The notes below the pieces were generated by a model. The model ran no database searches and was not told the origin of the DNA. It saw nothing but the letters and a program-made list of their open reading frames with translations. 64,000 nucleotides of DNA from Rhizodiscina lignyota. Its lineage: Eukaryota > Ascomycota > Dothideomycetes > Aulographales > Rhizodiscinaceae. Positions 25,842 to 51,736 of this stretch are shown here, in pieces. The first letter of the stretch is position 1; each line of letters starts with the position of its first letter. The stretch lies in NCBI GenBank assembly GCA_010015805.1, contig ML978122.1:496001-560000 (forward strand), given 5' to 3'. Position numbers and translations under genes: made by a program.

Positions 25842-26976
25842 ATGGCGCCAGGTGCGGTAGAAGTTCAGCCCATCACACCGATTGCGGTGAAGAAAGAGCT
25901 CAAGAGCTCCAAATCGCCTCTTCCGGAAGTCAAGGAGTTCGATGCGGCGACGTGTACCGTCGACGAGCTCGTCGATGCCCTGCGAGTGGCTGGAGGCGTG
26001 GTAGTAAGGAACATGCTCACCAAGGAGGAGGTAGAGCAAATCGAGGGAGATGTGCGGCCATGGCTAGAGAAGGATGTGCCGTGGGAGAACGGTATCTTTC
26101 GCAACTATGCAAGTACTGGATATCAATCTGATGTGAAGCACAGGCGATTTCTTTCCCCCGGAAACTCGTCGAGCCTGCGGTATGATCACCAAGAGCCGAA
26201 CATTCGCCCTTCGCATCGTTGGACATCCATTATGGCTTGGTGTCACGGATGCGCTCCTCACAAGCACCCAAAAGAACAACTGGGTAAGTCTTGCGGACTG
26301 AGGACTTTGTTCAATAGCTGAATGAAATGCTCCTCCAGGTTGGTGATAAGAACGAGCCCTCAGTGTCTGGGCCTCAGCTTAACAACACTATTGTGTTTTC
26401 AATCGGGCCCGGCGCACGCGATCAGGCACTCCACCGGGACGACCCTATCCACCACCGCGACTGGCCTGCTGTTGCAGAACACGAGCTCGGTCGTGACGGC
26501 GGCATCGGCTTCTTCATTGGGGGCAAGCGAACCACAAGAGAGAATGGCGCCACAAGGTTCATTCCAGGTAGCCATCTGTGGGATTACGCCGAAGGTCCAC
26601 CACGTGAAGACCAAGCATTTTACGCTGAGCTCCAACCCGGTGATGGATTCATGGTCATGAGTGGATGCTTCCACGGCGGAAGCGCGAACAAGACAAAGGA
26701 TGAGGAGAGGTTGGTCTTCTCGACGTTCAGCACGCGTGGATGGATGAGACAGGAGGAGAACCAGTATCTAGCCAACGATATTGAGAAGATCAAGGAGTTG
26801 CCAGAGTGGTTCCAAGAGAGAGTTGGATATGGGCTTAGTCGACCTTTCCTGGGGTGGGTCGATCTGAAGAACCCAATGTTGGTGTTGCATCCGGTGCGTT
26901 GATCCAGCCTGTTCTTGGTATATGTTCTTTCGCTAATCTCCAGCAGGATAAAGCAAAGTACGGCGACTTGTGGTAA
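25842..26976 (+). CDS. Phytanoyl-CoA dioxygenase (PhyH) family Fe(II)/2-oxoglutarate oxygenase
   Basis: The model is join(25842..26091, 26144..26283, 26339..26893, 26947..26976), 324 residues. The Fe(II) ligands are visible as H-x-D in QALHRDDPIHHRDWPA and the distal His in MSGCFHGGSANKT; FIPGSHLW is the usual family segment. The last exon is nine codons plus stop (DKAKYGDLW). PhyH-type enzymes hydroxylate acyl-CoAs, amino acids or secondary metabolites, using 2-oxoglutarate and oxygen. Fungal members of this type (fumitremorgin B endoperoxidase-like) often sit in metabolic clusters. Here it opens the catabolic block, convergent with a Zn2Cys6 regulator gene. The start ATG (context TCACCATGG) is well placed. 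Substrate unknown. Confidence 0.88.
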
Positions 26977-27380
26977 GGGAAGAATCCGCAGCTAGACTTG
27001 GACTATGTCTTTCGGAGTATCGTGGAATACGGTTCAAATGATTTGACTTCTGAAGCATTTGTCGACTCCGCTCAAGATCATGAAAATTTCGAAAATTTTG
27101 CTGGTGACGAGGTCGGCTATTTCGAGGATCTGTCAATTGCGCTGTAGAGTGTTGACCTCTTTCGCTTCGACTGCGCATGTGCAACTCTCACACTACTTCC
27201 CCCATGTCTCTTTACGTCTCATTGCCATATCCTAGAATCAGAAGCTGGGCGTCAACTGGAATTTTGAGATGCTCGTTTCGTTCTCTCGGACATGTAGACA
27301 TATATTCATGAGACTCAACTGTAGTGGTTTTGGTCTGGTGTCGCAAAATAATCGAGTGTCTGCTTGGTAACCGTGAAGTC
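26977..27380. other. Intergenic, convergent genes
   Basis: Lies between the ends of the PhyH gene and the regulator gene. No feature is seen. Confidence 0.5.
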
Positions 27381-29123
27381 TCATCCAAGTAGATATGCCT
27401 TCCCAGATGAAGGTTTGATGATATCACCCCACCATACATCCTTAACTGGATTTTCATCCATAGAAGCCCAGACGAGTTGCATCAAATCCAGAGCGGATTG
27501 GAAGAGCCAGAGTCCAGTCTTATCTTTCCATCGCTTGCAAAAGTCTATCGCGATGCTTCGGAATCGGAACGAGTCCATCTCACAACCTGCAAGGAAGAGC
27601 GGCAATAGGCACTGCTTCTGCGTTGCTGAATTGGCAGGTAGATCATGTATGAGCCACATAATCTCTTCGGCTAGCATGCGGGCTTTCGTTTGCGATGCTT
27701 CACTCTGGTGAAACACACGAGTACAGTAAAGGAGCATCCCAAGCCTCCAACAGTCCGTGAGAGCAGTAATGTTTTTGTCTTGATTCTGGTGGACAGAATC
27801 AAAGCGTGCAAGCCAGAGGCCCATCTCCAAGCGCGTCACATGTCCATCTGGCAATGGCGAAGTGCATGACGCAGCCACGGCAATGTCGTACATGTCCAGA
27901 AATGCTATGTCGGGATACCCGTTGAGGGAGAGAAGGCTCCATTCGGTGTCGACTTGCCATGACATGAGTGCTTCGGAGTATGTTCGTGGAAAAACAGGCC
28001 CTTTGCGAGACAGTAATGCAGCAGTCGTATCGTACCATATCAATTGAGCGATTTGACTCCTGAGCTGCGTGTTGTACTCTGCAAGCTTAATGCCTCCAGA
28101 TGACTCCAGGATCCTGTACGCGCCCCGGAGGTGTATGCTCCAGTCAGATAGCGCAGTTTCTGCGTAATCTAGACCAATAAGAAGCAGTGAGATGGTGATA
28201 CCCATCTCACATGGTATACCATTCACCTTTAAATGAGACGCAAAGCTACACAATGCTCTATCCTTAAGCTCCAGGACTTGAAGACTTTCCGGTTCACCCT
28301 GGAGATGCGCCCGATGCCGCTTTGCCAGAGCAACCACAGCGTCTAATACGAACGGTGCTTCGTGGATCTGAGTGAGACACTGTTGCCAAGGATTGATGCG
28401 GACATCGTAAGTCAAAGTGATTGGGCTGAATTGCCATTTGAAGAAGGATAACTGTTCGCGTATCGCCCGCGGTAACTGAAAAACGGTCGGGTCGAAGTGG
28501 TATATGACCGACTTTATATGTGCATCTCCGTCTGAATGGCGTCGTTCAGACCCCAATGGCAATCTTGCCACGGTAGAAACGGGCTCGCCTACTTCTTCAA
28601 CGTCATCGTCTTCTTCCGGCTCAGGCGGAGACGCAGTCTCTTGGGTTGATGTCGAGATTGCAGGGGTCGACACCGGAGACATTATTTTGTCCTTTGCTTC
28701 ATCGACGTCATCGGCTTGCTGCGATGTTGTGTCCTCTCTCCGCCTGCGCTCAGCAACTTTCCGTGTCCTCCTCCCCTTCTTGGCTCCATTCCTCTGGTCT
28801 TGAACAAATGTAAAGGTTGACGGTTTCGGCAGCTCTTTTGAAGTCTTACTGAGAGACTCGGGGAGAACGGTATTTTGTCTGAAGTTGCGCTGAAATGCAT
28901 GTGGATCCCACTTCAAGACCTGAGTGTATCCGCCACAGGTCATCCCAGCCGTCGTGCATGCGTCGCATCGAGGGCGTCTTCGGTCGCAAGGGCGAGAGTT
29001 CGAGGCACAAGTGTGACAATCAGACTTTGCCCAACCGAGAGAGTTCGTTCGCTTGGTGGTGGGAGGTATGAACTGGCTCCGTGCGGGTGACGCAGCAGAA
29101 GCGGGCGACTGGACGGAAGCCAT
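27381..29123 (-). CDS. Zn2Cys6 transcription factor, likely cluster regulator
   Basis: The single-exon frame from the ATG at 29123 gives 580 residues; the longer in-frame extension lacks an ATG. The zinc cluster at residues about 36-63 is complete: CHTCASNSRPC then C-x6-C, CDAC and C-x6-C, spacing 2-6-6-2-6. A linker follows (KWDPHAFQRNFR), then a Lys/Arg-rich nuclear-localisation-like run (KKGRRTRKVAERRRRE) and acidic stretches. The C-terminal ~350 residues resemble Fungal_trans_2, with YHFDPTVFQLPRAIREQL. The gene lies inside the run of catabolic genes and its upstream region carries several GATA motifs, so nitrogen control of a pathway-specific activator is a reasonable guess. It may recognise the CCG-N8-CGG elements found in two promoters of the block; that is inference. 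Confidence 0.85.
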   Translation of the reverse strand: MASVQSPASAASPARSQFIPPTTKRTNSLGWAKSDCHTCASNSRPCDRRRPRCDACTTAGMTCGGYTQVLKWDPHAFQRNFRQNTVLPESLSKTSKELPKPSTFTFVQDQRNGAKKGRRTRKVAERRRREDTTSQQADDVDEAKDKIMSPVSTPAISTSTQETASPPEPEEDDDVEEVGEPVSTVARLPLGSERRHSDGDAHIKSVIYHFDPTVFQLPRAIREQLSFFKWQFSPITLTYDVRINPWQQCLTQIHEAPFVLDAVVALAKRHRAHLQGEPESLQVLELKDRALCSFASHLKVNGIPCEMGITISLLLIGLDYAETALSDWSIHLRGAYRILESSGGIKLAEYNTQLRSQIAQLIWYDTTAALLSRKGPVFPRTYSEALMSWQVDTEWSLLSLNGYPDIAFLDMYDIAVAASCTSPLPDGHVTRLEMGLWLARFDSVHQNQDKNITALTDCWRLGMLLYCTRVFHQSEASQTKARMLAEEIMWLIHDLPANSATQKQCLLPLFLAGCEMDSFRFRSIAIDFCKRWKDKTGLWLFQSALDLMQLVWASMDENPVKDVWWGDIIKPSSGKAYLLG

Positions 29124-30058: not shown

Positions 30059-30847
30059 ATGTCGACAATCATCCTTATTACTGGTAAGAATAGTCTTGTG
30101 GTTGCATCATCGAACCAACGCTGAATTCCACCAGGAGCCAACTCTGGAGTTGGCTTTTCCTCCACGAAAGTCATCGCCTCCGCTTCATCTGAGTACCACA
30201 TTATTATGGCAGGACGCTCGCTCGAGAAGGTAGAAGCCGCGAAGGCTGAGATCGAGAAGACGGGCATTAAAGGATCTATCAGCACCATACAGTTCGACGT
30301 CACGGACAAGTCATCTATTGATGCCGCTGTGAAGCAAGTCGAATCTGAATTCGGACACATCGATGTGCTCATCAACAACGCTGGCGTTACTTCGCGGAAT
30401 CCGGATCTGAAGGCACAGATTGAGGAGACCATGGCCGCAAATGTCGTTGGTCCTGCATTGGTCTCCCAGGGTTTCCAACCGTTGCTATTCAAATCAAACA
30501 GACCGTACTCTATCTACGTGAGCAGCGGGCTCGGCTCGCTGGAAAGGGCCATAGAGCATCCGATTCCCAACGATCAGTGGACCGTATACAGGATGAGCAA
30601 AGCCGCCCTGGATATGCTCATGGTTCAAGAATACACGGCGCTGAGAGGAAAGGGTGTGAAGGTGTTCGCAATGTGTCCGGGTCTAGTGAGATCAAACTTG
30701 AGAGGCAAGTCGGCAACGGAAGTTAGCGCTGGCGGTGCTGCTGGAGACCCAGACATCTCAGGACACACAATGTTGACCATCGTCCAGGGTGAGAGGGATG
30801 CAGATGCAGGACGTATTGTGCACAAGGATGGCACTTACAACTGGTGA
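30059..30847 (+). CDS. Short-chain dehydrogenase/reductase (classical SDR)
   Basis: The model is join(30059..30083, 30135..30847), 245 residues. The eight-codon first exon MSTIILIT is needed to complete the cofactor motif ITGANSGVGFSSTKVIA. Other marks are MAGRS, FDVTD, NNAGV, the Ser in YVSSGLG, the active-site YRMSK (Tyr-x3-Lys) and MCPGLVRSNL. The length suits classical NAD(P)H-dependent SDRs. It is the first of two SDRs in the catabolic block and is divergent from the regulator gene. Substrate unknown; it may oxidise or reduce a hydroxyl or keto group made by one of the dioxygenases. Confidence 0.87.
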
Positions 30848-31489: not shown

Positions 31490-32683
31490 ATGCCTCCTCC
31501 ATTCCGAGCCGAGCATATTGGCTCTCTCATTAGACCCCAAATGCTGCTGGATGCTCGTAAAGCCGCACACATAGACCAAAACTTCCAAGGCGTGTCACCG
31601 GAGATCAAGCAAGCTACCGAATCCGCCATCTCCGAAGTCGTGAAGCAGCAACTATCCCGCGATGTCCGCCCCCTCACTACTGGGGAGTTTGAACGTCATA
31701 TCTTCTATGGTGGCTTCTTCGAGAACATTGAGGGTTTTGAGATTCGCGACCTTCCCATTCCGGAGGCATTCCGCACCAACTTTGCACCTACAGCACTCGC
31801 CAAGAAAATGGGTCACGACACTCGCGAGAGCCCAATTGCAACAGGAAAGATGAAGCGGCCTAAGAGTACGTATATGGACGACTGGATGCACTTGAGGAAT
31901 CTGTTACCGGAAGAGCAGTGGAAGGAGTGCAAGTTTACGATGCCACCTCCAACACAATCGCATATTGCTGTCAAACCTGGAATGATTTTCACTCCCGAGT
32001 CTGGATACACGTCTGAGAAGGAGTATTTCTCCGATTTGGCAGAAATATATCGCGAGGAAATGGCAGATCTGTACGATGCCGGCCTCAGGGATATCCAGGT
32101 TGACGATCCGTATATGACATTTCTCCTGGCGGACTGGTACCTCGAAGGTTTACGTTTAGACGGCGAAGATCCGGATGATATCCTGGACATGTATATCTGG
32201 GCGCATAATGAGTGTCTGAAGAGACGTCCCGCAGACTTACATGTTGGCATCCATCTCTGCAGAGGTAACTTCGCTGGACACCACTTCGCAAGCGGATCCT
32301 ATGACAGAATTGCAAAGAAAATGTTCAGTTACCTAGATTACGACACTTATTATCTGGAATACGATACGGAGCGCGCTGGCGGCTTTGAACCTTTGAAGGA
32401 TTTGCCTGTCGGGAAGAACGTGGTTCTCGGTGTGGTCTCTACCAAGACTCCGGAGCTGGAGGATGTCGACGAGTGCGTGGCGAGAATCCATGAGGCAGCT
32501 GATGTGATTGCGAACGGCCAAGGCAGGACCAGGGATGAAGTCTTGAGAGATATGGGCGTGAGCCCTCAATGTGGATTCGGCAGCTTCAGTCTGGCACAAC
32601 CGATGACTGATGATCAACAGTGGGCAAAGTTAGCCCTCGTTCGGCAGATAGCGCAAAAGATATGGGGCAATGAGGCCAAATGA
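31490..32683 (+). CDS. MetE-like protein (cobalamin-independent methionine synthase C-terminal domain family)
   Basis: A single exon of 397 residues from ATG 31490. It has FRAEHIGSLIRP at the start, LTTGEFERHIFYGGFFE, the QVDDP segment, and the Zn-site pieces GIHLCRGN (His and Cys) and SPQCGFGS (second Cys). This is the UROD/MetE-like TIM barrel of the YxjG/YxjH kind, much shorter than true methionine synthase (~760 residues), lacking the N-terminal half. Family members move methyl or related groups to a thiol on zinc; epoxyalkane:coenzyme M transferase belongs to the same fold. In this setting it may act on a methylated or thiol-containing intermediate, but that is a guess. It is convergent with the hydantoinase/oxoprolinase gene, whose stop is only 70 bases away. 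Confidence 0.85.
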   Translation: MPPPFRAEHIGSLIRPQMLLDARKAAHIDQNFQGVSPEIKQATESAISEVVKQQLSRDVRPLTTGEFERHIFYGGFFENIEGFEIRDLPIPEAFRTNFAPTALAKKMGHDTRESPIATGKMKRPKSTYMDDWMHLRNLLPEEQWKECKFTMPPPTQSHIAVKPGMIFTPESGYTSEKEYFSDLAEIYREEMADLYDAGLRDIQVDDPYMTFLLADWYLEGLRLDGEDPDDILDMYIWAHNECLKRRPADLHVGIHLCRGNFAGHHFASGSYDRIAKKMFSYLDYDTYYLEYDTERAGGFEPLKDLPVGKNVVLGVVSTKTPELEDVDECVARIHEAADVIANGQGRTRDEVLRDMGVSPQCGFGSFSLAQPMTDDQQWAKLALVRQIAQKIWGNEAK

Positions 32684-32752
32684 GATATGGAGAGTCGTAT
32701 GATCCCGGTAATGAAGTGTGATGGATTAGTGCAATCCTTGCAATATGTCTAT

Positions 32753-35700
32753 TTACAGCTTAACGTAATCATTCAGCTGCCAGCCGTTGGTTTCTCTCAT
32801 CTTCTTGTACCAGTTCTGCACATATGGGAGCGCAACATGTGGGCCGTATGGATCCTTCACCCATGGTGCTGTTGGTGGATCCAATGAAGTCTCTTCCTTG
32901 CAGGACTTGACCAACTCTTCAAGTGTGCCGCCACGGTTGTAAGTCAATTCGGCCCAGGCCTTCGGTCTCTGACTTCTAATTTGATTCCTCAGCTCCTCCG
33001 TTGCCCTTTCGTCAACGCTCCAGTCGCCGGGATTCACAATTACTCCGTAGTTCTTCTTAGCGCCTTCAAGAGTGACCAGGCGCCTGTGCACCTCCTTTGC
33101 GACCTTTTCAGCTGGACGAGTGAGCGGATCACCGAGCCCACCACCACCCCACGTGACCCATTCGAGGACGTCTCCTGGCTTGACGTGGACATAGTCGCAT
33201 TTAGAGGCAATAACCTCTCGATCGGGAGTTGGAGTGCCATAAGTGTTGTTTCGGAAGATCGATTTCACTGAGCGAGAGCCAGGCTCGCCACCATTTACGC
33301 CCCACTGAGACGATGTCAGCATTCAGAACAAGAGACAGAAATCATGCAGGAAGACTTACCGGTTTTGTAAACCATCTATCATCATGAATGCTGACGTCTC
33401 CTTCAGACAGGAAGCGGTACATCGTCCTCTGCGCGTTACCTCCGCGGTAGAAGCCTGGTCCGCCAGAATCTGCTACTGACTCGTTTACCTCAATAATGAG
33501 AGGGAAGTACAGTTCAATATTCTCAGTGGGGACGGATTTGATAGCTGGGAACAAACAGTGGCAGTCCGGGCCATCACCAAGAGGTCTTGCCGGAACGCCT
33601 CCAAAGCCAATCTGGTACAGTAGGAACCACTCGCCATCGGGCTTGAAACCAGAGTAAAACAGATGAGGGCTGTCGGAAAAGCCAGCGGCGCTTCGGAAAG
33701 CCGGATTACGCTGGCCCATCAGGGCTTGAATGACGTCCATGGTACGTCCGAGCAGATGTGTTCGACAACTGATGGCTGCTGGACGAATCGGTCGCAGAAT
33801 GGTACCCTCTGGTATTCTGACGTCAATGAGCTCATGGAAACCATCGTTGACAACTGCGTGTGGGTCATAAACGGCTAGCAGGAAGTAGCCGATGAACATG
33901 CGGAACATCGTCGTGGACAGGTAGTAGTTGACAGATGAGTTCGCCTGCGGAGTCGTACCGTCCCAATCGAAAACCAGCTTGTGGCCCTCTTTGTACATGG
34001 CACATTGAATAGCCAGAGGGCCATTGCCGTGGCCATCATCGTCGATGAAATCAGTGAACTCGCTGCGCTCCGTACCAATCTTTGTGTCGATTAGGTGAGC
34101 GATGGCGGACTTGTTGCGCTCAAGAAGGTCCTCAGTAGCAGCTTGGTAAACTTCGTAGCCATATCTGTCGCAGAGTTCGCACACTCTGACTGCGGCAGTC
34201 TTGCATGCGGCCACGAGAGCAGTGAGATCGCTATCGAACCACTCCGGAATACGGCTGTTGCGGCGGAAGATCTCGACCATAGCTGAGTTGTATTTGCCCC
34301 GCTCATACAGCTTGACACATGGAATCTGAAGGCCGTCTTCGAAAATGGTCGTAGCGTTGACGCTCATTGATCCCGGGACCTTGCCTTGGACGTCTGTTTG
34401 AAGTGACAGTTAGCAGGAGGTTAGAAAGCAAAATCATGACATGAGTGTATGACTTTACCTGTCAAATGCCCGAAATTTGCCGCCCACCCGATAATGTTCC
34501 CCTTCCACCATATGGGAAGCAGGACAATAACATCGTTCAGATGAGAAACGGCGCCTTGGATCGCATAGGTGTCGTTCGTGACAAAAATGTCTCCCTCTTC
34601 GATGGTCCCTTTCCACATTGCCAAGAACTGAGTGATGAAACTGCCAAACTGCCCAACGAGCATTTGCCCTTTCGTATTAGTAATGACGTTGAATTCGTCT
34701 TGTTGATCTCTGATTGCAGGAGACATGGCGCAACGGAGCATGAGGGTATCCATCTCTCTGCGAATCGAGCCAAGAGCGGATGCGACAAGAGTAGAGATGA
34801 GCGGCGAGTCCTTGACAAGCTTTATAGCAGATTCCGAAGTGTGGATGACCTCTTCTTGAAACTGTTGGTGTTCTGAATCTGCAGGCCAGATGAGTATGTT
34901 GCCCACGTTGTCAACTTCGCCCACATAGCCAGGCAGGATCAAGGTGTTCGAGTCCATCTCAGTTACGATGCAAGGTCCCTTGAGCTTGATCCCTTGCTTC
35001 GTGACCTTTGGCCTGTCCCAAATTGTGGCTTCGACACTCTCTCCGTTGTAGTAGATCGTTTGCTTGCTGACGATGGCGTCGCTTGGTGGTTCTGAGCTGG
35101 AACCATGCTCGATCGTCTGAATTTGGACTTCGCTTGAATCATCCACGACCTTAACACGGAGGCGCATCATCTCGATCTCGGCAGTCTCGAGTGAGAAGTT
35201 GAACTGCTGCTCATGCACTACTCCGAAGTATCCGCGTAAAGCCTTCAGCATCTCAGGAGTGTCAAGCTCCAAATCAGAGTGTGAAAAGTCTACAGTGAGT
35301 GATGTTGCTTGTCCTTTGTACCGCATGTCTGCCTGATAGAAGACTTTAAGCGGGGCAGTGTCGTTTGCTAGAGCTCGCTTCATGATATCGATGCAGCTCC
35401 TCCGTAGGTCACCCAGAGTACTGCCCAGGTCTTTGTTGGTTACTTGGGAGAATGTCTTGATATAAGTGCATGATTGCTCGTGAGACATCTTCGTCGTTGC
35501 ATCTCCTTGTGCGCAAAGAACTCCAGGAGAAGGGGGTACGATGACAGGGAATGAGCCCAAGAGCTTGCCAACAGCGTTGGCATGGACGGGTCCGGCACCA
35601 CCGAAGGCAACGAGTGCGAATTTGCGAGGGTCATAGCCCTGCTCGACGGAGACGAGACGCAGTGCGCCATGCATGGACTCATTGACCAAGTCAATAATAC

Positions 35701-37081
35701 CCTCAGCTGCAGCATATTTCGACATGTTCATTCTCTTCGCAACAGCCTCAACAGCGACAGTCGCGGCCTCAACGTCGAGCTTCATTTTGCCTCCAAGTAA
35801 TGTTGATGGGAGATATCCCAAGACCAGATTAGCATCCGTCACAGTTGCCTGAACTCCGCCCTTGCCATAGGCAGCGGGACCCGGATTCGCACCCGCACTT
35901 TCGGGACCAACACGGAGTGTGTTGGTTAGTTCGTTGTAGACTGCGATAGATCCTCCGCCTGCTCCAACCGTGCGCACATCGACGCAAGGAGCTCTGACTG
36001 TCAGACCTCCAACAATAGTCTCGCGGCGGACAACGGGATTAGAGCCAGGAATCAGAGCACAGTCTGTAGAAGTTCCACCCATGTCCAAGGTAATGAGGTT
36101 CTTATATGGGGTATTCTGCGATAAAACATGGGTAACTCCTTTGACGCCTCCAGCGGGGCCACTCATCAGCATGTTAACAGGCAGTTCTCCTGCCAAATGT
36201 GTCGAGGTCAAGTCGCCATCAGACTTCAGGATGCGAATAGTGTCCGTATCGTCCGCAAGCATCTTTGACAAATTGCTTACATACTTCTTCACGATTGGCT
36301 TGACGATGGCGTTGGCAGCGGTGGTAACTGTTCGCTCGTACTCCTGGATCTCTGGAAGCACATCGGTGGAGGTAACAACTTCCACCGAAGGTCCAAACTC
36401 TTCATGGAGTATCTCGCGGATCGCGTCCTCATTGGTCTTATTACTGAACGAATTGAGCAAGCTCACAGCGATTGCCTCTGGCTCCTGGCGCTTCAAGTCC
36501 GCCAAGCTTGCCCTGAATTTCTCCTTGTCTATCGGCCTGATCACCTCTCCATGGATCGAGGTCCGTTCCGGAGCATCGACTGTACGCTCCAATGGGACTA
36601 TTGGATCCGGCTGCTGCCAGTTGATCCAGCCTCCAAGGCCTCCGGGAATCTGTGAGCGACGGAAATTCAAGATATCTTTGTGACCAGATGTAACGACAAG
36701 CCCAGCTTTGGCACCCTTGCCTTCGAGAATGGCGTTCGTTCCAACTGTTGTTCCGTGATGGATATACCTAATCGGCCCTTTAATGATACATTCAGATCAT
36801 GAGCGCTGGAATAGCCGCGGCATACTCAAATTTCCCATCCCAGCCCTCTAGCTCTTTCAATTGCGCTTTGACCTGGTCGACACCATTCTTCACGCCAATA
36901 CTTTGATCTTTCGTGTCTGTGAGGGTTTTTGCTCGCACTGTGCGTCCTTCGGGGGTGATCACACAAACATCTATAAAAGGCGGATTTAGCTCAATTCTGG
37001 CTGGTGAAGTGTCTGTATGAACAAACCTGTGAAGGTGCCCCCAACATCCACGCCCAATCGATACCCTTTTGGAGCCGCCAT
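32753..37081 (-). CDS. Hydantoinase/5-oxoprolinase family protein, HyuA-HyuB fusion
   Basis: The model is complement(32753..33304, 33360..34393, 34459..36767, 36826..36970, 37027..37081), 1,364 residues. The N-terminus has the ASKHA phosphate motif YRLGVDVGGTFTD, then YIHHGTTVGTNAILEGKGAK, SGPAGGVKGVTHV, LDMGGTSTD and GAGGGSI of HyuA. About residue 770 it passes into HyuB (SAIRDQQDEFNVITN, FVTNDTYAIQGAVSHLND, GHGNGPLAI), ending with WGGGGLGDPL. This is the layout of eukaryotic 5-oxoprolinase (OPLAH/Oxp1), ~1,280 residues. Such enzymes use ATP to open a cyclic amide: 5-oxoproline, N-methylhydantoin and others. Exon 2 splices to an acceptor (GATTAG) that yields GKFEYIHHG. It is divergent from an amidase gene. 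True 5-oxoprolinase or a hydantoinase with another substrate cannot be told apart here; the setting suggests the latter. Confidence 0.9.
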
Positions 37082-37883: not shown

Positions 37884-40081
37884 ATGTCTGTCGTGTTCCT
37901 CAATAAGGGTCCTCCCACAGGTGAGCAGTTCACTTGGACGTAATCTCAATGGATTGCTGACATGAGCAGTTGATGCTGAGACTTTGAAGGGAGTCGCCGC
38001 GCATAGCAACATTACACTTCGTCCTCAAGATGAAGAGCACTACCGCTATTTGCTAGACTCTTTTGATGCCACAGCTCAGCAAGTTGCTGATTTGCCCGCA
38101 TGGACAAACCCAGAGTTGCTTCCTGAGGCTGGAACACTTCCCAGGAAGTACTGGAAAGAATCTAAAAATCCGCTGAATGCGTGGAGTCACAGAACTGAGA
38201 TCAAATCATCGTCGCCAGAGAACAACAAGCTCGCTGGCAAAACATTCGCGGTCAAAGACAATGTCTCAATTGGCGGCCTTCCAATCACTGGCGGGACGTT
38301 TCCGGAGTAAGTCCTGTTATGATCTTTAATCATATCTACAAGAACGTCCTAATGCTATCTACTCGTTAGTTGTTTCAGTTTGTTGAATTGCAAAGTGTTC
38401 AGTAGCAAGGTTCAAGAGCTATGGGTCAGACTGGGGTCTTTATCTATGAGCTGTACAACATGTTTGAGGAGAACGAAGATGGTTCCAGTGCTAATGTAAT
38501 TCACGTGATCAAGGTTGCTCGTGGGAAAATCAGAGTACCCAATCTCGGAGATTGATGCTGTAGTCGTGTCCCGGATTCTCCAGGCCGGAGGGATCATAGC
38601 AGGCTCGGCAACATGTGAACATTTCTCCATGTCTCCGCTATCATGGACGAGCGCCAATGGCCCTGTCCACAATCCGTGGAGAAAAGGATATACAGCCGGC
38701 GGCAGTAGCAGCGGTCCAGGAGCTTTGGTAGGTGCCGGTGTGATTAAGGCATGGAGAAAGCGTCATGGGCTGCCGCCCATTGATGATGAACTTGGGCCCC
38801 ATGTGGACATGGCAATCGGAGGTGATCAGGGCGGCAGCATCAGAATTCCGGGAGCGTACAACGGAATATACGGACTCAAACCGACGCACGGTTTGGTGCC
38901 ATATACCGGAATTCTTTCCCTGAATCCCATGATCGACCACACGGGCCCAATGTGTGGCACCTTGGAAGACACAGCAGCTATGCTTGGTGTCATGGCAGGC
39001 TACGACGGTATTGATCCGAGAATGACGCCCGAATCGCCGAAGATGGATGAAGTCAAGGATTATTCCGCCATCCTGGCAAACTTTATATCCGAGAAGAAAG
39101 AGAAAGGGGAGTGGACGCCGGAGAAGTCTGGCGTCGGACTGCGTGTTGGAGTCATCAAAGAAGCATTCGAGGTCTTGGGCCTGACAGATGAAGTGAAGGC
39201 GATTGTGAAAGAAGCAGTCGAACGGTTCAAGTCAATCGGAGCTACGGTTGAGGAGGTTTCTATTCCTATGCACACAATTGGTCCCTCTATTTGGTATGTC
39301 CAGCTTGTTCATGCCCAAAGTGATCAGTTCCTTACCTGTGATCAGGACGATTGCAACGCGGATCGGTATTGCGACCCACGGCTTCCAGAACCATCCGCTT
39401 CTCCTTCTCAACCATCCCCTCCCTGGGATCAGGTAAGGCTATGTCTAAATCATACTACAAGAAATGTTCATGCTGACTTTGTAGTCCTCCACCACTTGAC
39501 CAGAAGTCGTACGAGATTCTCACCAAGCACAATCCGGCTGCTGTCAATGTGATATTCAATGCGGACTTCCTGCTCCACAACCGGGAGCCGAATCTACAAG
39601 CAAAGGCCATGATGCGTACGTAATCCCGTCCTTATACGTCTGGGTGACATACTCATGTCTGCGAATTAGATGCTATCCAGCTGCGAAAAGCATACGACGA
39701 CGTGCTAGCTAATTACGACGTCCTCGTGACTCCAATGAATCCGACTACGGGCTCAATGCACCCACAGTACGATCAGACTGTTGGAGAGAAAATGGCACCA
39801 TCAATCGGAGGTACTTTGAACTCATGCCAGTTCAATATCACCGGACGTACGTTCCCTCTCTACATTCAGTTTTGATGATTATGAAAATCCCACGAGACTA
39901 ATAATTCATAGATCCTGGGCTTGCATTCCCAGTAGGGTGGGGAAATGTCGAGAATGGCAAAGGCAAGATGCCCATCGCTATGCAGATCGTTGGCAAACGG
40001 TTCGAGGACGACACTGTGCTCAAAGCCGCCGCAGCGTGGGAGGTTCCAGGCCTGGGTCTCGATTCTTGGGATGGCAAATAA
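37884..40081 (+). CDS. Amidase (amidase signature family), cluster copy 1
   Basis: The model is join(37884..37920, 37970..38306, 38514..39293, 39346..39432, 39485..39615, 39670..39846, 39912..40081), 572 residues. The triad is intact: Lys in KTFAVKDNVSIGG, cis-Ser in TAGGSSSGPGAL, nucleophile Ser in GGDQGGSIRIPGAYNG. GIYGLKPTHGLVPYTG and the C-terminal HPGLAFPVGW complete the family pattern. The N-terminal ~100 residues (LRPQDEEHYRYLLDSFDATAQQV) are shared in kind with the second amidase at 46975, so the two look like paralogues. Intron 2 is 207 bases, the others near 50. Such enzymes cleave a linear amide to acid plus amine or ammonia; here the substrate may be the ring-opened product of its divergent neighbour. 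Cytosolic; no targeting signal is seen. Confidence 0.88.
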
Positions 40082-40620: not shown

Positions 40621-41864
40621 ATGAGTTCAAGACCATGCTGGCGGCAGGCCAGGCTCTCGTCCAATCCTCACTGGGTACGCTACACAAATTCTTCTGAAAG
40701 GAGTGCATTTACTGATCCTCTGCAGAAAGGATGCCAAGCCAACGTTCGAGGAGATCCCAAAGATTGATATGAGCCCGATCTTCTCGGAATCACTAGAAGA
40801 GCGAAAGAAAGTAGCAGCTCAGGTTGGAAAGGCCTGCAAAGAAGTCGGCTTCTTCTATGCTGTAAACCACGGCGTCTCGGAAGAAACCATCCAAGGAGCA
40901 TTCCGTGCAGTTGAGAATTGGTTCTCTCAGCCGGAGGAAGTCAAATTGGAGACGAATATCAATCAAAATAAGCACTTCAGGGGCTATGAGCCGCTTCTCT
41001 CGACGCAGCTTGACCCCAATACTAGAGGAGGTACGCTTGAAGAAAACCAATTTCTGAATTCAAACACTCACGACTCTCGCAGATCTCAAGGAAGCATATA
41101 TGATCGGCGAGGATCCGTATGATCCAGAATCTAGATGTCCAGATGATGTTAAGGAGAAGATTATGAAGAAGCATCCCGATCTGATTCCGCGAAATCAGTG
41201 GCCAAAGATCCCGACTCCTGCAAATCAAGCTCTTCGCCCGGCAGTGTACGGCTATTACAAGGAAATGGTCGACTTCGCGAGGGCCCTGTTGCGAACCTTT
41301 GCCTTGGCCCTCGACATGCCAGAGAATCACTTCGACTCAATTGCGACGTTCCCGAAGTGCAATATGCGGAGTCTGCACTACCCATCGCAAGAGTTCGCAA
41401 CGGACGTTGGAATCGGCGCACACACCGACTACTCTTGCTTCACTTTGGTATGCCAGTCAACCTCATGTCCCTCCGGCCTGCAGGTCCTCAATGCAAACGG
41501 CATCTGGGTGAACGCGCCTCCAGTCGAGAGAACTTTTGTCTGCAATGTTGGCGACTTCTTCCAGGAAGCTACAGCAGGCAGGTTCCTCAGTACTGTGCAC
41601 AGGGTAGTAAACAAGACTGGCTCGGAGAGGTACAGCATTCCATTCTTCTTTGCGCCCAATATGGATGCGGAGATGGCAGTTGTAGAGAGCTGCAGGGAGC
41701 CTGGTAAAGAATACCAGCCTCTCCAGGTGGGGGCATACTTTAAGAAGAGGATTGCGGCTGCGCGGTCGAAGCATCCGGATGGAACCACGCCAGAAAAGAC
41801 ACGAGCGGAGGATGACGGAAAGTTGATTCTGGAGACAGTGAAGCAGGTCGCTGCTGTAGCATAA
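40621..41864 (+). CDS. 2-oxoglutarate/Fe(II) dioxygenase, isopenicillin-N-synthase-like
   Basis: Secure exons are 40730..41030 and 41083..41864. A first exon at 40621..40674 keeps frame (378 residues in all), but its acceptor (GCAGAAAG) is not the usual choice, so the true 5' end is unsure. The DIOX_N domain reads EIPKIDMSPIFSES and VGFFYAVNHGVSEETI. The catalytic core has H-x-D in GAHTDYSCFTL, the distal His in STVHRVVNK and the 2-oxoglutarate Arg-x-Ser in RYSIPFFFAP. Enzymes of this kind hydroxylate, desaturate or cyclise small molecules, often amino-acid derived. It lies between the first cluster amidase and the amino-acid permease. Another Fe(II) oxygenase, of PhyH type, is in the same block. 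Confidence 0.85.
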
Positions 41865-42137: not shown

Positions 42138-43763
42138 TTATGTTCCGACCGAGCCGGAGTTGTCCGCACAGTCGAAGGCACCTCCAATCAGACCAGAAGC
42201 GTACGCATCAATGATCTGCTGAACCACGCCGTAAGTACCACCACCGAGGATGAACAGACCAAGGGCGATCATGCCCCAGTGCATCAGCCAATAGGCCTTG
42301 AACAAAACGTTGCCCTTCCAGTAATCCCAGTGGTCATAAAGCCACAGCCAAGCTGGCAAGCAAATGGCCATCGGAGCGAAGCAGACGCTGCCAGTGAGGG
42401 CAATGAGGAAACTGAAGATTGGTACGGCCTCGCAGATGATAAATGCAACCGCTGCAAGTCCGATGACGGTACCAAGCCAGGTGGCCCAGTGAATGACGGT
42501 GTTATGTTGGAGATGGCGCGAGTCTCTCAGAATACGAACGAAGACGTATTTGGAAGCGACATGGAGATACAGGCACGCGGACACTATGAGACCAACAAGA
42601 CCGATGGCGTAGGAGACGATCTTGACGGTGTGTCCAGCGCTACCGATAGACGGGTTGGCAACATACTGGCCGCACCTTCTGAGTGTTAGCACAAATCTGA
42701 GGTGCTTCTCGTTTTTGGAGAACTTACCATCTATACACAACCAGGGCAAAAGTCAAGTAGGATGCTTGCACAAGAGCCATGCACCAGTAGACGGCCTTGT
42801 TGTACTCCTTGGGATTGCGCATCTCCGAAATCACAGGGAGGAAAGCAGAAGTTCCAGCTGATGAGACGAAGATTGTGGCGGTGGCCGTCATACCGTCGAC
42901 GAAAGTCGTGCTAGGGGGTACCGCAAACCAACCAAGGTCATAATCACCTGTTGGGGGTGCTGTCGCTGGTCGGGTCCTCGTTGTCACAGCGATGCTACTC
43001 ATCGTCAGCAATGGAAGCACTATTATTGTAAACACCAGTTTGACTTACACAACAATGAAGACTGCCGCGTAAATGGAAAAGAATCCAGCATAAGTAAGCC
43101 ATCCGATTTGGTGGAACTTTCGGACGCTAGCAGCAAGGACGACAATGACCGTAGCGACAAATGTGAACCAGACCGTGCAAGCTTTTGAGATATTAGCTTT
43201 AGCCACTGTTGAATGTGTCTCGATGAACTCACCTCCGTGCGTGGAGAAAACATTCAGTGCGATGGAGACACCCAAAATGCCAGAGCCAGTGCAGAGGACA
43301 TATGCGACGATGAAAAGCAAGCCAACGACTTCCCTGAGTACCTTTCCGCCAAGAACGTTCGCCATGTCGGCGATACTATGGCAGCCAGCATGACGATTTC
43401 TGAAATTTCCTTGAACGATTGCAGTGTAGGTGTTCAAGAGACCCCAACCAATCACGGAGAAGCCACCACCAACTGCTCCAAGAGAGAACATCGCCGTCGG
43501 GATACTAAGCACACCAGTCGCGAAGATGACTGCAAACTGGTTAGCAATAATTGCGATTCATAGTCAAGACAGTTCTCACCCTTCAAGAAGATAATGGACG
43601 CCTTTTGCCATGATACAGTACGGAAGTCAACAACATCTTCACCCTTCTTGAAGACTTCGAATTCGTTCTCGATCTCTTTGTCGTAGATGATATCCTCCGC
43701 GTCACCCATGCTGATGCTCCGTCTGTGGATGCTCCCAATGCTTCCATCTTTTTCGCCCGTCAT
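42138..43763 (-). CDS. Amino-acid permease, AAAP family, Mtr-like
   Basis: The model is complement(42138..42675, 42728..42994, 43049..43181, 43233..43529, 43580..43763), 472 residues. A hydrophilic N-terminus (about 55 residues) leads into VIFATGVLSIPTAMFSLG, followed by about ten further helices, including GLLFIVAYVLCTGSGILG and the late GTYGVVQQIIDAYASG end. It resembles Neurospora Mtr, the neutral/aromatic amino-acid permease of the plasma membrane. The intron at 43182-43232 is 51 bases with no in-frame stop, so it can be missed; removing it gives NVFSTHGACTVWF as in relatives. It is the only transporter inside the catabolic block and probably imports its substrate. It is convergent with the dioxygenase gene (273 bases apart). 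Confidence 0.87.
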
Positions 43764-45463: not shown

Positions 45464-46588
45464 TCAAGCGCCACCCGTTCTGCTACCCGGCTTGTACGGG
45501 AACTTCTCCTTGTAGTGTTTCGCGATATTTCGTCTCGTAGTCACCCAGACATCGGGTTTGTCGTTGACGTACTTCATGAAATTTCGTAGCGCCTCTGCTC
45601 TTCCAGCTTTGCCTGATATCCTCGAGTGTAGGGGAATGTTCATCAGTTTTCCTCCTTCTCGGTACAGCATGTCAAACGTGCTCTTCAGGTACTGCTCGTA
45701 CAACTGGCCGGCGCTGGTGACGAAGCCCGGAGACATGTGGAATTTGCCGTCATTGCAATCATAGTTGTAGGGGACTACGAGCATGCCTTTTCGCTCATTC
45801 TCTGGCAGGGAAGCCTCCCAAGGGAGATCTACCCAATACGGCACATCGTCGTTGTACGCTTCGGAGCTGTAGAGCAATTCTGAACCGCACTCTTTCCACA
45901 CGATGGGGCAGAGCGCGTGTGTATTTGGAGTGCCACGGCCGAAGTAGAAGCCTACTGGCATCTCTCCGGTCGCCTGCTTCAGCGTCATGATGGTGTCCTT
46001 GATGTATTTCTTGTCTGCCTCGAGGTCATAGTCCCAGAATTCGAGCCACCGGTAACCTGCAGATCATACAGTCAGTCCTGTCATATTGTGATTATGCCCG
46101 AGAATTGGTCTGGTATAGAGAATGTGGACAATCTTACCATGCGCGCCAATTTCGTGACCTTCCCGAATACATGCTTTTGAGAAGGGCTCATTCCGCTCCA
46201 TAGCTTTGGCAATAGCCCAAATTGTCATTTGCCATCCAAACTCCTTCATCAGCCGCATTATACGCCACACTCCGGATCGACTACCGTATTCAAAGTCATG
46301 CTCGGTATTTAGGTGCCTGCCTCCCGTCTTGACACCTCCAGCGGATCCCTTCTCCCACAAGTAGGGCTCCATAACATCATCTCCATCCGCAACGTTGCGC
46401 TCACCACCCTCTTCGTAGTTCAGGATGAACGAAACCGCTATGCGAGCGCCGTTCGGCCATTGGGGATCGTGTGACTCTTCTCCGAATCCTATGCGTCTTT
46501 TAGTTACAACTCCTCTGCCAGCTGGATGATAGATCGGCTCACCTATGAAGTCCCGCGGAATTTGACAGTTCTCTTCAACATGGACCAT
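45464..46588 (-). CDS. PuuE-like polysaccharide deacetylase / allantoinase family hydrolase
   Basis: The model is complement(45464..46056, 46138..46588), 347 residues, start at ATG 46588. The NodB-homology fold reads WPNGARIAVSFILNYEEGGE, YGSRSGVWRIMRLMKEFG, REGHEIGAHGYRWLEFWDYD, then GFYFGRGTPNTHAL and DDVPYWVD. This is the PuuE branch, known in bacteria as a cofactor-free allantoinase, that is, a hydrolase of a cyclic ureide; other members are deacetylases. The Asp-His-His metal triad of chitin deacetylases is not clearly complete, in line with PuuE. No signal peptide is seen, so it acts in the cell. It shares a short divergent promoter (386 bases) with the second cluster amidase. Allantoinase activity in this fungus is inference. 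Confidence 0.85.
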
Positions 46589-46974: not shown

Positions 46975-48753
46975 ATGTCTGTCTTTTCAGTGACACCTAA
47001 GGATGGTAATCCTGTCTCTGCGGCAGTCCTCGATGACTGCTGCAAGACGTTGGGGGTCACTGTCAAAGAAGATGAGCACGAGGACTACCGGAAGCTGCTC
47101 GCAGTCTTCCACGAATCGGCTGAAGAGCTGATGGCCCTGCCAGGTAATGATCGAAAGTCCAATTGTAGAATAATTTAATACTGACGATGTAGATTATGAA
47201 CCTCCTGTGGACCTCGAGAGATTCCCTCGCAGAAACCTTCATTTCCCCGACAAGAAGGATAACGAATATGGTGCCTGGGCATGGAAGTTCGACCTCAAAG
47301 ACATTAGGCCTTCGATGACCAAGGGGCTATTAGCCGGGAAGAGACTTGCTTTAAAGGACAACATAGCTGTCAAAGATGTCCCAATGCTTGTTGGTACAGA
47401 TTTCTTCAAGGGTTTTGTGCCGGTGAGATGCAATGATTATACTTGATATCCCCCGAATCCAAGACTAATAGGTATGAATTCAGACCACCGATGCTACTGT
47501 TGTCACGCGCATTCTCGAGGCCGGGGGTCACATCTTGGGCAAGGCCGTATGCGAGAACATGTGTCACAGCGGGACATCACACTCGGCGGCCACTGGTGTG
47601 GTCGAGAATCCACATGTGAAAGGTTACAGCTCAGGAGGCAGTTCAAGTGGCAGCGGTGTGCTTGTTTCGTTGGGCGAAGTGGACATGGCAATCGGTGCAG
47701 ACCAAGGCGGCTCTGTCCGAATACCCAGCTGCAATTGTGGCATTGTTGGACTCAAGCCGACATTCGGGCTCATTCCCTACACAGCTTGCGGCTCGAATGA
47801 GCCAACCAACGACCATCTGGGCCCAATGACGAAATCCGTGCTCGATAATGCGTATCTTCTTCAGGCAATTGCAGGCAATGACAACATCGATGATCGAAGT
47901 TTCGCTGCTCCGCATCCTCAGAATATACCCAGATACGGTGATAATCTGGCGAGACGCCCCAATCCCACGAATCTGAAGGGCATGCGGTTTGGCATCATCT
48001 CTGAGTCTCTTACAAGTGCAGTCGTAGATCCTCGCGTAAAGGCCACCATCCTCGCAGCTGCGGAGACATTCAAGAAGCTCGGTGCAGAAGTCATCGAGGT
48101 CAGCATCCCAATCCACAAGAAAGGGACTGCGATCTGGACGTAAGACCATAAATTTACTCCGATCATATGGCCACACACGCTGACATGATATGAACAGTGG
48201 CGTCAGCAAAGTGGGCGGCTACCTTGCCAAGTCATCTGGCCCGTTCGGACGCCGTGGCTACCAAATGATCGATCTGCAACAGCGCATGTGGCCATTGAGG
48301 CAGGAAGGCTGGGACAATGCATACGTCTCGACGAAGAACATATACTTGAACGGAGTCTATGCTCTGACTGCATTCCCCGAATTATTATCGAAGGCAACGA
48401 ATCTTTCCAGGCAACTCAGAGACTCGTATGACGCCGTTCTCAGCGACGTCGACCTCTTGCTCACTCCAACACTACCTTATGTCGCGACCAGCCACAGCGC
48501 TCCCGATGCCACTCCACTGGACCAGATTGCGAAGCAAGTCGGGCTCACCAGCTCGACCGCTCAATTCAATCAGACTGGGCACCCTGCACTTACGCTGCCA
48601 TGCGGCATGCTGGAGGTCCTAGAAGGACCCGAGAAGGGTTCTGGGAAGAAACTTCCGGTGGGCTTGCAGATCATCGGAAAATGGTGGGATGAAGAGACTG
48701 TGTACAAAGCAGCATATGCATGGGAGCTGTCCAGCGATTGGAAGAATTTGTAA
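46975..48753 (+). CDS. Amidase (amidase signature family), cluster copy 2
   Basis: The model is join(46975..47143, 47193..47422, 47484..48139, 48198..48753), 536 residues. The triad is complete: Lys in KRLALKDNIAVKDVP, cis-Ser in SSGGSSSGSGVLV, nucleophile Ser in GADQGGSVRIPSCNCG. The segments ATVVTRILEAGGHILGKAVCE and the C-terminal TGHPALTLPCG and PVGLQIIGKWWDE are standard. The order of motifs and the N-terminal domain (EDEHEDYRKLLAVFHES) match the amidase at 37884, so one likely arose from the other long ago; introns are at different places. It may act after the PuuE-like hydrolase on a linear amide or ureide. Cytosolic. Confidence 0.88.
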
Positions 48754-49207: not shown

Positions 49208-49996
49208 ATGACAGAAAGCAAGACAAATATCTTGATCACTGGGGCCGCATCCGGGATTGGATTATGCTTCCTTGAACATTTCCGAAGACAAGCGAATACA
49301 TGGACTATCGCCGTTGATAGAATGGAGATCCCAATCAGCAGGACTTTAGATGACTCTTGGATGAGCGTTCACGCAGATCTTACAGACGAGATTTCGCTCC
49401 GGAACGTAATGCGAGAAATTGGCGATATCCCAATTCATCTCGTGATACATAGCGCTGGCATTAGAGGCCTCATGCCGCCAGTCTCCGAAGTAAACGATGT
49501 GCCGAGCAGAGAGACATGGCAAGCGATAACCACCTCGAAATTGGTGGAGACCTTCAATATCAACACGGCCGCAACCTTCTCGTTGCTGAAGATGCTAATG
49601 GGCCGCCTCATTTGGGCTGGCACGAATGATGTTTGGATGGCCGATGAGAATGGACATCCAACGGCTCGCTGTCCTTGGGTTTTCGCTCCGAAAGTTGTCA
49701 TCATGACATCTCGAATGGGATCAGTCTCTTACAACTCGGTTGGTGGAGCATATGCGTATCGCGCTAGCAAAGCTGCACTTAATGCAATCGTTAAGAGCTT
49801 CAGCATAGACATGCCGGAAATACTGTTTGCCTTAGTACATCCGGGCAGAGTAGAGACTGGCCTTGTCGAATTCAAAGAGGAGAGGGCAATGGGAGCTGAG
49901 GAGAGCGTTGGAGACATGCTGAAGCTTATTGAGCGCCTTGAGCTTAAAGACAGCGGAAGATTCATGGACAGATTTGGAGAAGATATTGGGTGGTGA
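49208..49996 (+). CDS. Short-chain dehydrogenase/reductase (C-factor-like SDR)
   Basis: A single exon of 262 residues. The motifs are ILITGAASGIGLCFLEHF (cofactor), HADLTD, HSAGIRGL, VIMTSRMGS (Ser) and the active-site YRASK (Tyr-x3-Lys), then LVHPGRVETGL. It fits the small C-signal-factor/sniffer-like group of classical SDRs. The gene closes the dense part of the catabolic block, 454 bases after the second amidase on the same strand. A 55-base minisatellite starts about 20 bases past its stop. Substrate unknown. Confidence 0.86.
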   Translation: MTESKTNILITGAASGIGLCFLEHFRRQANTWTIAVDRMEIPISRTLDDSWMSVHADLTDEISLRNVMREIGDIPIHLVIHSAGIRGLMPPVSEVNDVPSRETWQAITTSKLVETFNINTAATFSLLKMLMGRLIWAGTNDVWMADENGHPTARCPWVFAPKVVIMTSRMGSVSYNSVGGAYAYRASKAALNAIVKSFSIDMPEILFALVHPGRVETGLVEFKEERAMGAEESVGDMLKLIERLELKDSGRFMDRFGEDIGW

Positions 49997-50884
49997 AACG
50001 GCAGGCGTTCCATCTACGTTCACCTTCTTCCGCAGGGCTCGCACTGTGCGCGAAATTCGACCTATATTCGAATTTCACCTTCTTCTACGGAGCTTGCGCT
50101 ATGTACGCAAGTTGGCCTGTATTCAAAGTTTACCTTCTTCGAAGAAGTTCGCAATATGCGCACACATTACACGATGTACCGACTCACCTCGCGCGAACTA
50201 TCTCGCACTACGCATGGATGTTAGACTATTTGCGGAGTTCATCTTCTTCGAGGGAGCTCACACTGCTACTATATGGATCCAGCTCACTGTTCACATACCC
50301 CAGCCAATCTACATAGACGACCAGGTTTCTTTGTACATAAACGTCCACGGGCGCCAAGAATTTGGCACCTGCTGCTGCAAGCAATTGTTCCTTTGTCTTT
50401 GGCTTATCACCCCGAGAACTGTTTAATTATATATAGATACATAGAACAAGCTTTACCTTAAATAAACCACTTAGCGGTATCGTATATCTGAAAGTGAGCG
50501 ATGTTATTATTACCTACATTCACTTCAACTACGCGTCGATTGATTCGTGTTCCAGTAGATAATTTGTGGTATCTATTCCCTATGATTTGTACTTTAAGGA
50601 GTAGCAACTACTAAAGGTGGCAAAGTAGTTATATATCTCACTTCGCATGGAGAGCTAATCCCTGACAGAACGGGAGATCGACACAGGGTGCTGGAGCTTT
50701 GACATTGGCCCCACGATCATCGGGAGTCGGCATCGGCGCACGGTTGCGAAATACCACCGTCTGCCGTGCTTGCTTTCTAACTTCGCGACCTGGCCGCCTG
50801 GAATTCCAGAGACGGTGTCAGCTATAAGAAGATGAAATTATTCTCTGCTACGTGAAAGCTCACCCTCAATTTTCTCCAGCGACA
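49997..50884. other. Intergenic with minisatellite
   Basis: The left third is a degenerate 55-base tandem repeat (listed separately). The rest is AT-rich, without a gene, and holds the promoter of the flavin-reductase-like gene. Confidence 0.55.
50019..50290. repeat. Degenerate 55-bp tandem repeat, about five copies
   Basis: The phrase TTCACCTTCTTC starts at 50019 and 50074, as TTTACCTTCTTC at 50129, in worn form near 50183, and as TTCATCTTCTTC at 50238, a steady step of 54-55 bases. Each copy continues with a GAGCTCGC/GAGCTTGCG-like part and a TGTGCGCGAA/ATGTACGCAA-like part. This is a minisatellite in the 3' flank of the SDR gene. Confidence 0.75.
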
Positions 50885-51736
50885 ATGTTTTACGAACCGG
50901 GAAAGACGGAGCATGGCCTCCCCTATGATCCATTCAAAGTAAGCTCAACAGTAATGTTCTTACGTCTTATTACTCCAATTTATATTGCATCATGATTGTT
51001 TACGCTGGCTGGCTAGGCATGCGTCGTCCCACGGCCCATTGGCTGGATCTCCACAGTTTCCTCCTCCGGCATATACAACCTAGCGCCGTTCTCCCAGTTC
51101 AATAATCTCACCTTCGACCCTCCATATGTCATGTTCTCCGCAAACCAAACTACCACAAGTATGCGGAAAGACTCCGTCGTCAATGCTGAATCCACGGGAA
51201 AGTTCTGCTGGAGCTTGGCGACCTGGGATCTGCGAGAGCAGGTCAACATTTCCAGCGAAGAAGTGCCCCCAGACGTCGACGAATTTGAGCGCGCAGAGCT
51301 TGAGAAAGAGTGGAGCGCGGTGTTGCCCGAAGGCAAAGAGGGCAAGGTGCCAATGGTCAAGGCCAGCCCGGTGAAATTTGAGTGCTTGTATCATTCCACA
51401 GTGCGGTTACCTGGTAACCCACCTATGGGAACTGTAGATGTCATAATTGGCCGTGTGGTGGGGATACATGTGTCAGACGACGTGATAACAGATGGGAAAG
51501 TGGATATCACCAAGACACAACCGATTGCCAGATGTGGATATTATCAGTATGCGGTAGTGAGGGAGACGTTCGACATGATCATACCGGGCATGAATGAGTT
51601 GATTAGGAGTGGAATGGAGGGTAGTGCGAAGAAGAACAAGGCAGCAGCAGAAGGATCTCAGATTGCTGAAGTCGGCATCAATACTGCGACGAATGGCCAA
51701 TCGAAACAGCGCACTCTAGGCGCTCCAAAGGTATGA
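50885..51736 (+). CDS. Flavin-reductase-like FMN-binding split-barrel protein
   Basis: The model is join(50885..50938, 51017..51736), 257 residues. Exon 1 (MFYEPGKTEHGLPYDPFK) joins to ACVVPRPIGWISTV, the usual FMN-site opening of the Flavin_Reduct family, followed by LAPFSQFNNLTFDPPYVMFSAN. The part LEKEWSAVLPEGKEGKVPMVKASPVKFECLYH is the middle of the domain; GRVVGIHV lines the dimer face. Family members are FMN reductases or oxygenase partners; many fungal ones are of unknown role. The C-terminal 40 residues (Gly/Gln/Ser-rich) are outside the domain. It sits at the right end of the catabolic block but may not belong to it. Confidence 0.83.

Follow-up and report, generated by a model that had tools for sequence, protein, structure and literature searches.

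A candidate catabolic gene cluster for a cyclic nitrogen compound in the fungus Rhizodiscina lignyota

A 26 kb region of the Rhizodiscina lignyota genome (positions 25,842-51,736 of a window of 64,000 nucleotides on contig ML978122.1, which is C2:496001-560000 in our numbering of the 33.4 Mb, 29-contig genome) contains 12 predicted genes, including a fused HyuA-HyuB protein, a PuuE-like hydrolase, two amidases, two oxygenases, a permease and a single regulator. We consider it probable, at about 0.6, that these genes form a co-regulated catabolic cluster through which a cyclic nitrogen compound would be used as nitrogen source, and from the encoded families we infer a lactam, an imide, a ureide or a hydantoin-like substrate. 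In the proposed scheme, the Aa_trans permease (g13) would import the compound, two Fe(II)/2-oxoglutarate (2OG) oxygenases and the short-chain dehydrogenases (SDRs) would turn it into a lactam or imide by oxidation, the ATP-driven fused HyuAB protein (g11) and/or the PuuE-like hydrolase (g14) would open the ring, and the amidases would free ammonia from the resulting linear amide, with the Zn2Cys6 protein (g8) switching the genes on beneath a general nitrogen control by GATA factors. To our knowledge, few fungal pathways for N-heterocycles have been worked out beyond those for purines and nicotinate, and a cluster in which an ATP-dependent lactamase meets a PuuE-type hydrolase along with amidases and oxygenases would offer a route open to testing, possibly with new lactam or imide hydrolases.

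Gene models are predictions by a purpose-written exon-chain predictor, trained on the long frames of the window and cross-checked with Pfam. In keeping with a fungal origin, introns are short and the regulator is of the Zn2Cys6/Fungal_trans_2 kind. An earlier note, made from the letters of this DNA alone, had named the gene families and their adjacency within 26 kb, and Pfam bears out all of them at the coordinates it gave. The genes follow the order listed below, with g8/g9, g11/g12 and g14/g15 as divergent pairs; the motifs sought in g7, g9, g10, g12, g12b, g14, g15 and g16 were found in each.

g7, 25842..26976, plus strand: PhyH-type Fe(II)/2OG dioxygenase, 4 exons; PF05721, 68 bits
g8, 27381..29123, minus strand: Zn2Cys6 regulator, 580 aa, single exon; CX2CX6CX6CX2CX6C at residue 36; PF11951 (Fungal_trans_2), 94 bits
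g9, 30059..30847, plus strand: SDR, 2 exons; PF00106, 117.3 bits; TGANSGVG, YRMSK
g10, 31490..32683, plus strand: MetE-like (YxjG type) protein, 397 aa, single exon; PF01717, 52.9 bits
g11, 32753..37081, minus strand: fused HyuA-HyuB ATP-dependent lactam/hydantoin-hydrolase-like protein, 1,364 aa, 5 exons; PF05378, PF01968, PF19278, PF02538
g12, 37884..40081, plus strand: amidase (amidase-signature family); PF01425, 194.5 bits; KDN, GSSSG, GGDQGGSI; model uncertain in two short stretches
g12b, 40769..41864, plus strand: DIOX_N/2OG-Fe(II) oxygenase, 2 exons; PF14226 and PF03171
g13, 42138..43709, minus strand: amino-acid permease (Aa_trans), 4 exons; PF01490, 87.9 bits
g14, 45464..46588, minus strand: PuuE-like cyclic-amide hydrolase, 329 aa; exons 46543-46588, 46138-46488 and 45464-46056; PF01522, 48.3 bits
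g15, 46975..48753, plus strand: amidase, 536 aa, 4 exons, divergent from g14; PF01425, 268.6 bits; KDN, GSSSG
g16, 49208..49996, plus strand: SDR, single exon; PF00106, 51.4 bits; TGAASGIG, YRASK
g16b, 50885..51736, plus strand: flavin-reductase-like FMN protein, 2 exons (50885-50938, 51017-51736); PF01613, 57.5 bits

Two candidate ring openers

Both domains of the HyuA-HyuB pair read in the earlier note are present, as one fused gene of five exons and not as two genes. The product of g11 is predicted to be an ATP-dependent lactam or hydantoin hydrolase: it matches an N-methylhydantoinase (7hk5) at 507.8 bits, keeps the caprolactamase ATP motifs (DVGGTFTD, DMGGT and GANPGP), and in its HyuB part, aligned to CapB, carries an Asp-His-Asp-His metal tetrad (D47, H99, D102, H124). 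The CapB tetrad is Asp41-His99-Asp102-His124, and its mutants are inactive according to the sections of the caprolactamase study used here (PMC8453981). In the order of its domains, its ATP motifs and its metal tetrad, g11 agrees with the caprolactamase CapAB and the ATP-dependent N-methylhydantoinase. It differs in forming a fused chain, unlike CapAB, in its caprolactamase equivalog scores (448.7 and 193.5 bits, both under cut-offs of 1000), and in grouping with a bacterial clade whose loci frequently include genes for an amidohydrolase, a CoA transferase and a lyase nearby.

The fused layout is also that of the 5-oxoprolinase OXP1, but g11 shares only 25-26% identity with the two proteins of its own genome that we take to be OXP1-like. 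Against bacterial relatives, its HyuB part reaches identities of 45-49% (four plasmid-borne proteins), 39% (two others) and 48-54% (the best 80 of 526 confirmed bacterial HyuAB loci). In a quickly built tree with 90 HyuB rows, g11 falls in a bacterial clade, split from the OXP1-like pair with a support of 100, on a long branch for which the program warns of possible misplacement. By sequence, g11 is not 5-oxoprolinase-like and groups with the bacterial clade; we make no claim of horizontal transfer, because this grouping sits on a long branch in a tree without other fungal sequences for comparison. As a side observation, an OXP1-like gene at C6:1259289-1270421 lies downstream of Asp/Glu-racemase-like and flavin-monooxygenase-like genes (names given by eye).

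Among the best 80 bacterial loci, 45 have full flanks and 35 incomplete ones. Within 10 kb of HyuAB, the full-flank loci carry an isochorismatase-type amidohydrolase in 32 cases, a CoA transferase in 39 and an HMG-CoA-lyase-like gene in 33, all three being present in 27; LeuCD or an ICL-type lyase is sometimes added. Of eight annotated plasmid regions, six have an isochorismatase-family or N-carbamoylsarcosine-amidohydrolase gene no more than two genes from HyuAB, four a CoA transferase and three an HMG-CoA lyase; two sphingomonad plasmids have none of the three, and a ninth region carried no annotation. This neighbourhood looks like an imide-to-dicarboxylate route, and a literature search for the combination of HyuAB, amidohydrolase, CoA transferase and lyase found no description of it. 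The common bacterial context of HyuAB is one in which a ring is opened and the amide then hydrolysed, the same logic as that proposed for the fungal HyuAB protein and amidases.

The second candidate, g14, has a first intron of 54 bp that is in-frame and concealed in the raw open frame. Its family match spans the whole length, and it has the PuuE-type NYEEG (metal motif) and HGYRW, as in PuuE allantoinase. An earlier model of g14 scored 242.3 bits against the PuuE structure 3cl6 (238-244 bits for PuuE-type chains overall), and g14 scores 25 bits against HpPgdA (3qbu). Nevertheless, the allantoinase-type reading in the earlier note is not supported: on TIGR03212 (PuuE), g14 reaches 291 bits, under the cut-off of 424.6 that a bacterial control, the Methylobacterium PuuE from a urate operon, passes at 502.3. 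Four paralogues (331-356 bits) are likewise below this cut-off, and g14 scores lowest of the five PuuE-like proteins found in the genome (six of the 12 PF01522 loci were read). Substitutions typical of allantoinases are named in part of a published study (PMC10269774). A separate, classical allantoinase-like gene lies at C3:3176804-3178367, where three exons match at 182, 207 and 23 bits, none of them reaching the cut-off (357.85) by itself. Allantoin is therefore disfavoured as substrate, and g14 is not given an allantoinase label.

Clustering, recurrence and shared sites

The clustering is real and non-random. Genome-wide, with exon matches merged by hand so that counts are lower bounds, we find at least 3 loci for HydB (8 matches), 30 for amidases (42), 12 for PF01522 (13), 5 for Meth_synt_2 (5), 31 for 2OG-FeII (32), 5 for flavin reductase (5) and 17 for PhyH (17). 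All seven of these families occur together within 26 kb solely at this locus, the runner-up on C12 having three, and random placement brings together at most four of the seven (20,000 simulations); as the families were picked from this window, the simulation describes rather than tests the clustering. A less circular check is offered by the 11 PF01522 loci outside the window: at four of them (C5, C12, C23 and C26) an amidase or 2OG oxygenase lies within 10 kb, and at seven not, against a null mean of 0.38 (P 5e-4; the null took 59 neighbours versus 57 real ones). With a 6 kb limit, chosen after seeing the data, the null mean is 0.23 and P 4e-5.

The pairings take several forms. On C26, a PuuE-like hydrolase and a 2OG-Fe(II) oxygenase (44% identical to g14 and 37% to g12b) are divergent neighbours at 91977-93097 and 93756-95023. 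At C5:1346689-1351802, a PuuE-like gene has a cytosine/purine-type permease (PF02133) on one side and an amidase on the other. C12:317000-326999 holds five genes, for a flavin-reductase-like protein, an AAT protein (PF03417), a PF01522 protein of HxnM size, a 2OG-Fe(II) oxygenase and a UNC-93-type transporter. On C23, a PuuE-like gene lies about 4 kb from an amidase, with another gene in between, and at C2:2541465-2548851 SDR-like and MFS-like genes (both named by eye) accompany a 2OG-Fe(II) oxygenase and an amidase. For one more PuuE-like gene, at C1:3755877, neither an amidase nor a 2OG oxygenase lies less than 10 kb away. That the modules come back repeatedly in one genome suggests how such clusters get assembled.

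The cluster may itself extend upstream to two further genes:

g5, 20116..21469, minus strand: amidase; PF01425, 245.2 bits; model probably without its N-terminus
g6, 22609..24630, plus strand: UNC-93-type MFS transporter; PF05978, 53 bits

In comparisons with selected genomic stretches, g5 shares 65% identity with the amidase in the mini-cluster at C2:2.54 Mb, and g6 shares 35% with the C12 transporter.

GATA-type sites (HGATAR) number 39 in the 8,436 bp of intergenic DNA of the cluster, where a first-order Markov model expects 25.9 +/- 5.0 and 2 of 300 simulations reach 39. Elsewhere in the window, 54 sites are found in 21,770 bp of non-coding DNA for an expectation of 57 (cluster versus rest, P 0.003). 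The motif is absent from two of the 11 cluster intergenic regions, including the one upstream of g10. The enrichment would fit nitrogen control by an AreA-type factor, if weakly. CGGN8CCG, picked without correction from 42 combinations of spacing and orientation, occurs five times in the cluster, confined to three central ones of its 11 intergenic regions, and twice in the remaining non-coding DNA of the window.

This confinement to three central regions, together with the two- or three-family mini-clusters that stand alone at C26, C5, C12, C23 and C2:2.54 Mb, speaks for a rival reading in which two or three smaller catabolic units lie side by side and act on different compounds (for example g14, g15 and g12b; g10 and g11; and an upstream amidase/UNC-93 unit). 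However, the 26 kb contain just one regulator gene and none of the 12 genes is of housekeeping type, and we regard such an arrangement as unlikely. Of the joint breakdown of a cyclic amide, imide or ureide proposed in the earlier note, what stands is a non-random set of N-C bond hydrolases, oxidoreductases, permease and regulator, with pairings that recur and a moderate GATA enrichment; the substrate class is putative.

Rival readings and described systems

Alternatively, the region could be a cryptic secondary-metabolite cluster of tailoring or biosynthetic type, in which PhyH and 2OG oxygenases, SDRs and amidases would act on a small molecule whose synthesis takes place elsewhere or through a non-canonical core. 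The main point in favour is the nearness of g7 to NvfE (208.8 bits) and SwnH1 (132.8 bits), its closest solved structures, with SwnH2 also among the nearest. TraH, TropC and SpoC appear among the PDB matches of g12b, although these rank behind an ethylene-forming-enzyme relative and an iron/ascorbate oxidoreductase, and Zn2Cys6 regulators are common in secondary-metabolite clusters. Yet no polyketide synthase or non-ribosomal peptide synthetase is found among the predicted genes and Pfam matches of the window, where the longest closed stop-to-stop frame (984 aa) comes from a Ser-rich protein; prediction at the threshold used gives three genes for the flanking DNA (20 kb upstream, 10 kb downstream), and none of them is such an enzyme. 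Moreover, HyuAB, the PuuE-like protein and the two amidases belong to hydrolase families of degradation. A biosynthetic role is accordingly judged improbable. That unrelated accessory genes came to lie together loosely or by chance in a variable region, as might be suggested by the accessory genes in the window flanks (DAO, MFS, SDR), has very little probability in view of the seven-family simulation and the pairings recurring elsewhere in the genome.

Several observations weigh against a catabolic cluster for one cyclic compound. The nearest relatives of g7 are dioxygenases of secondary metabolism, the Monte Carlo families were selected post hoc, and two ring openers would be redundant unless the substrate is two-ringed or the enzymes act in sequence. 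In addition, bacteria lend the full gene set no support, because homologues of g5, g7, g10, g12b and g16b occur at none of the 80 bacterial HyuAB loci (tblastn, E 1e-8), nor at any of the 45 with full flanks. Homologues of g12, g14 and g15 are rare there (2, 4 and 3 of the 45, respectively). A bacterial counterpart of the entire cluster is rejected on these counts from the best 80 of the 526 loci.

Among described systems, the hxn nicotinate regulon of Aspergillus nidulans comes closest, and the cluster studied here could follow a similar logic. In the portions of the hxn reports on which we draw (PMC9304392, PMC8478523), the cyclic imidase HxnM opens an imide ring and the amidase HxnN deamidates the product and releases nitrogen, other members being the SDR HxnW and the 2OG dioxygenase HxnY. 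Both systems, as far as those portions go, combine a ring opener of CE4/PF01522 type with an amidase-signature amidase, an SDR, a 2OG oxygenase, a transporter and a regulator, and in the present cluster the amidase adjoins the ring opener (g14/g15). HyuAB, PhyH, MetE-like and flavin-reductase proteins are extra here, whereas the families of the Mo-hydroxylase HxnS, the flavin monooxygenases HxnX and HxnV and the OYE HxnT are missing from the Pfam matches of the 12 genes (the rest of the genome was not searched). Furthermore, g14 is of the PuuE and not the HpPgdA type, the comparator being 3qbu and not HxnM itself. Because of the missing families and the other type of ring opener, the cluster is not considered an hxn member.

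The earlier note knew of no described fungal cluster with this exact set, and none came up in targeted searches of the open-licence literature. Reports of fungal hydantoinases or oxoprolinases concern, in the parts consulted, single induced, up-regulated or multi-copy genes and no such cluster (PMC6346535, PMC12735256, PMC5737690, PMC5999205). Riboflavin or lumichrome catabolism was set aside, its enzyme set differing in the partial accounts used. That the substrate is methylated, as the earlier note ventured, is a guess made because of the MetE-like protein alone. A doubtful but specific version of the catabolic reading is an undescribed pathway in which a methylated cyclic amide would be oxidised and would pass its methyl group to a thiol with the help of the MetE-like zinc protein; a bacterial-type ATP-dependent lactamase and a neofunctionalised PuuE would open the ring in two steps before deamidation, the enzyme set being drawn from modules that recur in the genome (ring opener plus amidase or oxygenase).

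Remaining enzymes and flanking genes

Lys and Ser-Ser stretches are found in both amidases, g12 and g15. Among amidases of known structure, 3a1k is nearest to g15 (300.5 bits). The closest genomic paralogue of g15 lies at C3:1.057 Mb (47% and 41% identity in two pieces), and none of the genes predicted over the surrounding 8 kb belongs to a cluster family. Reading g12 as a pseudogene was considered and not adopted: its frames can be joined by plausible introns, and breakage is not shown.

The motif found in g7 is HxD with a later His-Arg (H162, D164, H242), and g12b carries HTD and HR...RxS (HRVVNKTGSERYS). TGxxxGxG and YxxxK are present in both SDRs. The MetE-like protein g10 scores 235.6 bits on PRK06520, under the cut-off of 313, and has 1ypx as its sole PDB match (184.9 bits, whole-length). 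A putative Zn-ligand pattern of HxC, Glu and Cys in g10 (HLC at 255, LEYD at 289, PQCG at 359), placed by motif and not by structure, recalls the His, Cys, Glu and Cys ligands of MetE given in a section of PMC7005905; similar core-MetE homologues of aerobic marine bacteria may not work as methionine synthase, according to part of another report (PMC12478193). The flavin-reductase-like g16b matches component B of nitrilotriacetate monooxygenase (3bpk) at 88.8 bits. The proposed scheme gives no step to g10 or g16b, for which methyl or alkyl transfer to a thiol and FMN reduction, respectively, are guesses at function.

The flanks of the cluster carry an FAD-dependent DAO-type oxidase gene (8013-9648) and two MFS genes (10391-12411, a weak match of 19 bits, and 56217-57873), with the endings FRYCL and FRYTL; these three genes are possibly part of a wider nitrogen-use region. 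The 990-aa protein encoded at 13727-16755, rich in Ser and Gly and hydrophobic at its N-terminus, is perhaps located at the cell surface, judging by eye. At 60283-62629 lies a gene for a 744-aa protein whose first part is presumably SET-domain-like, from the motif RINHSCVPN, and whose last exon has no Pfam match. Finally, an SPT5 gene is located about 6 kb upstream of the window.

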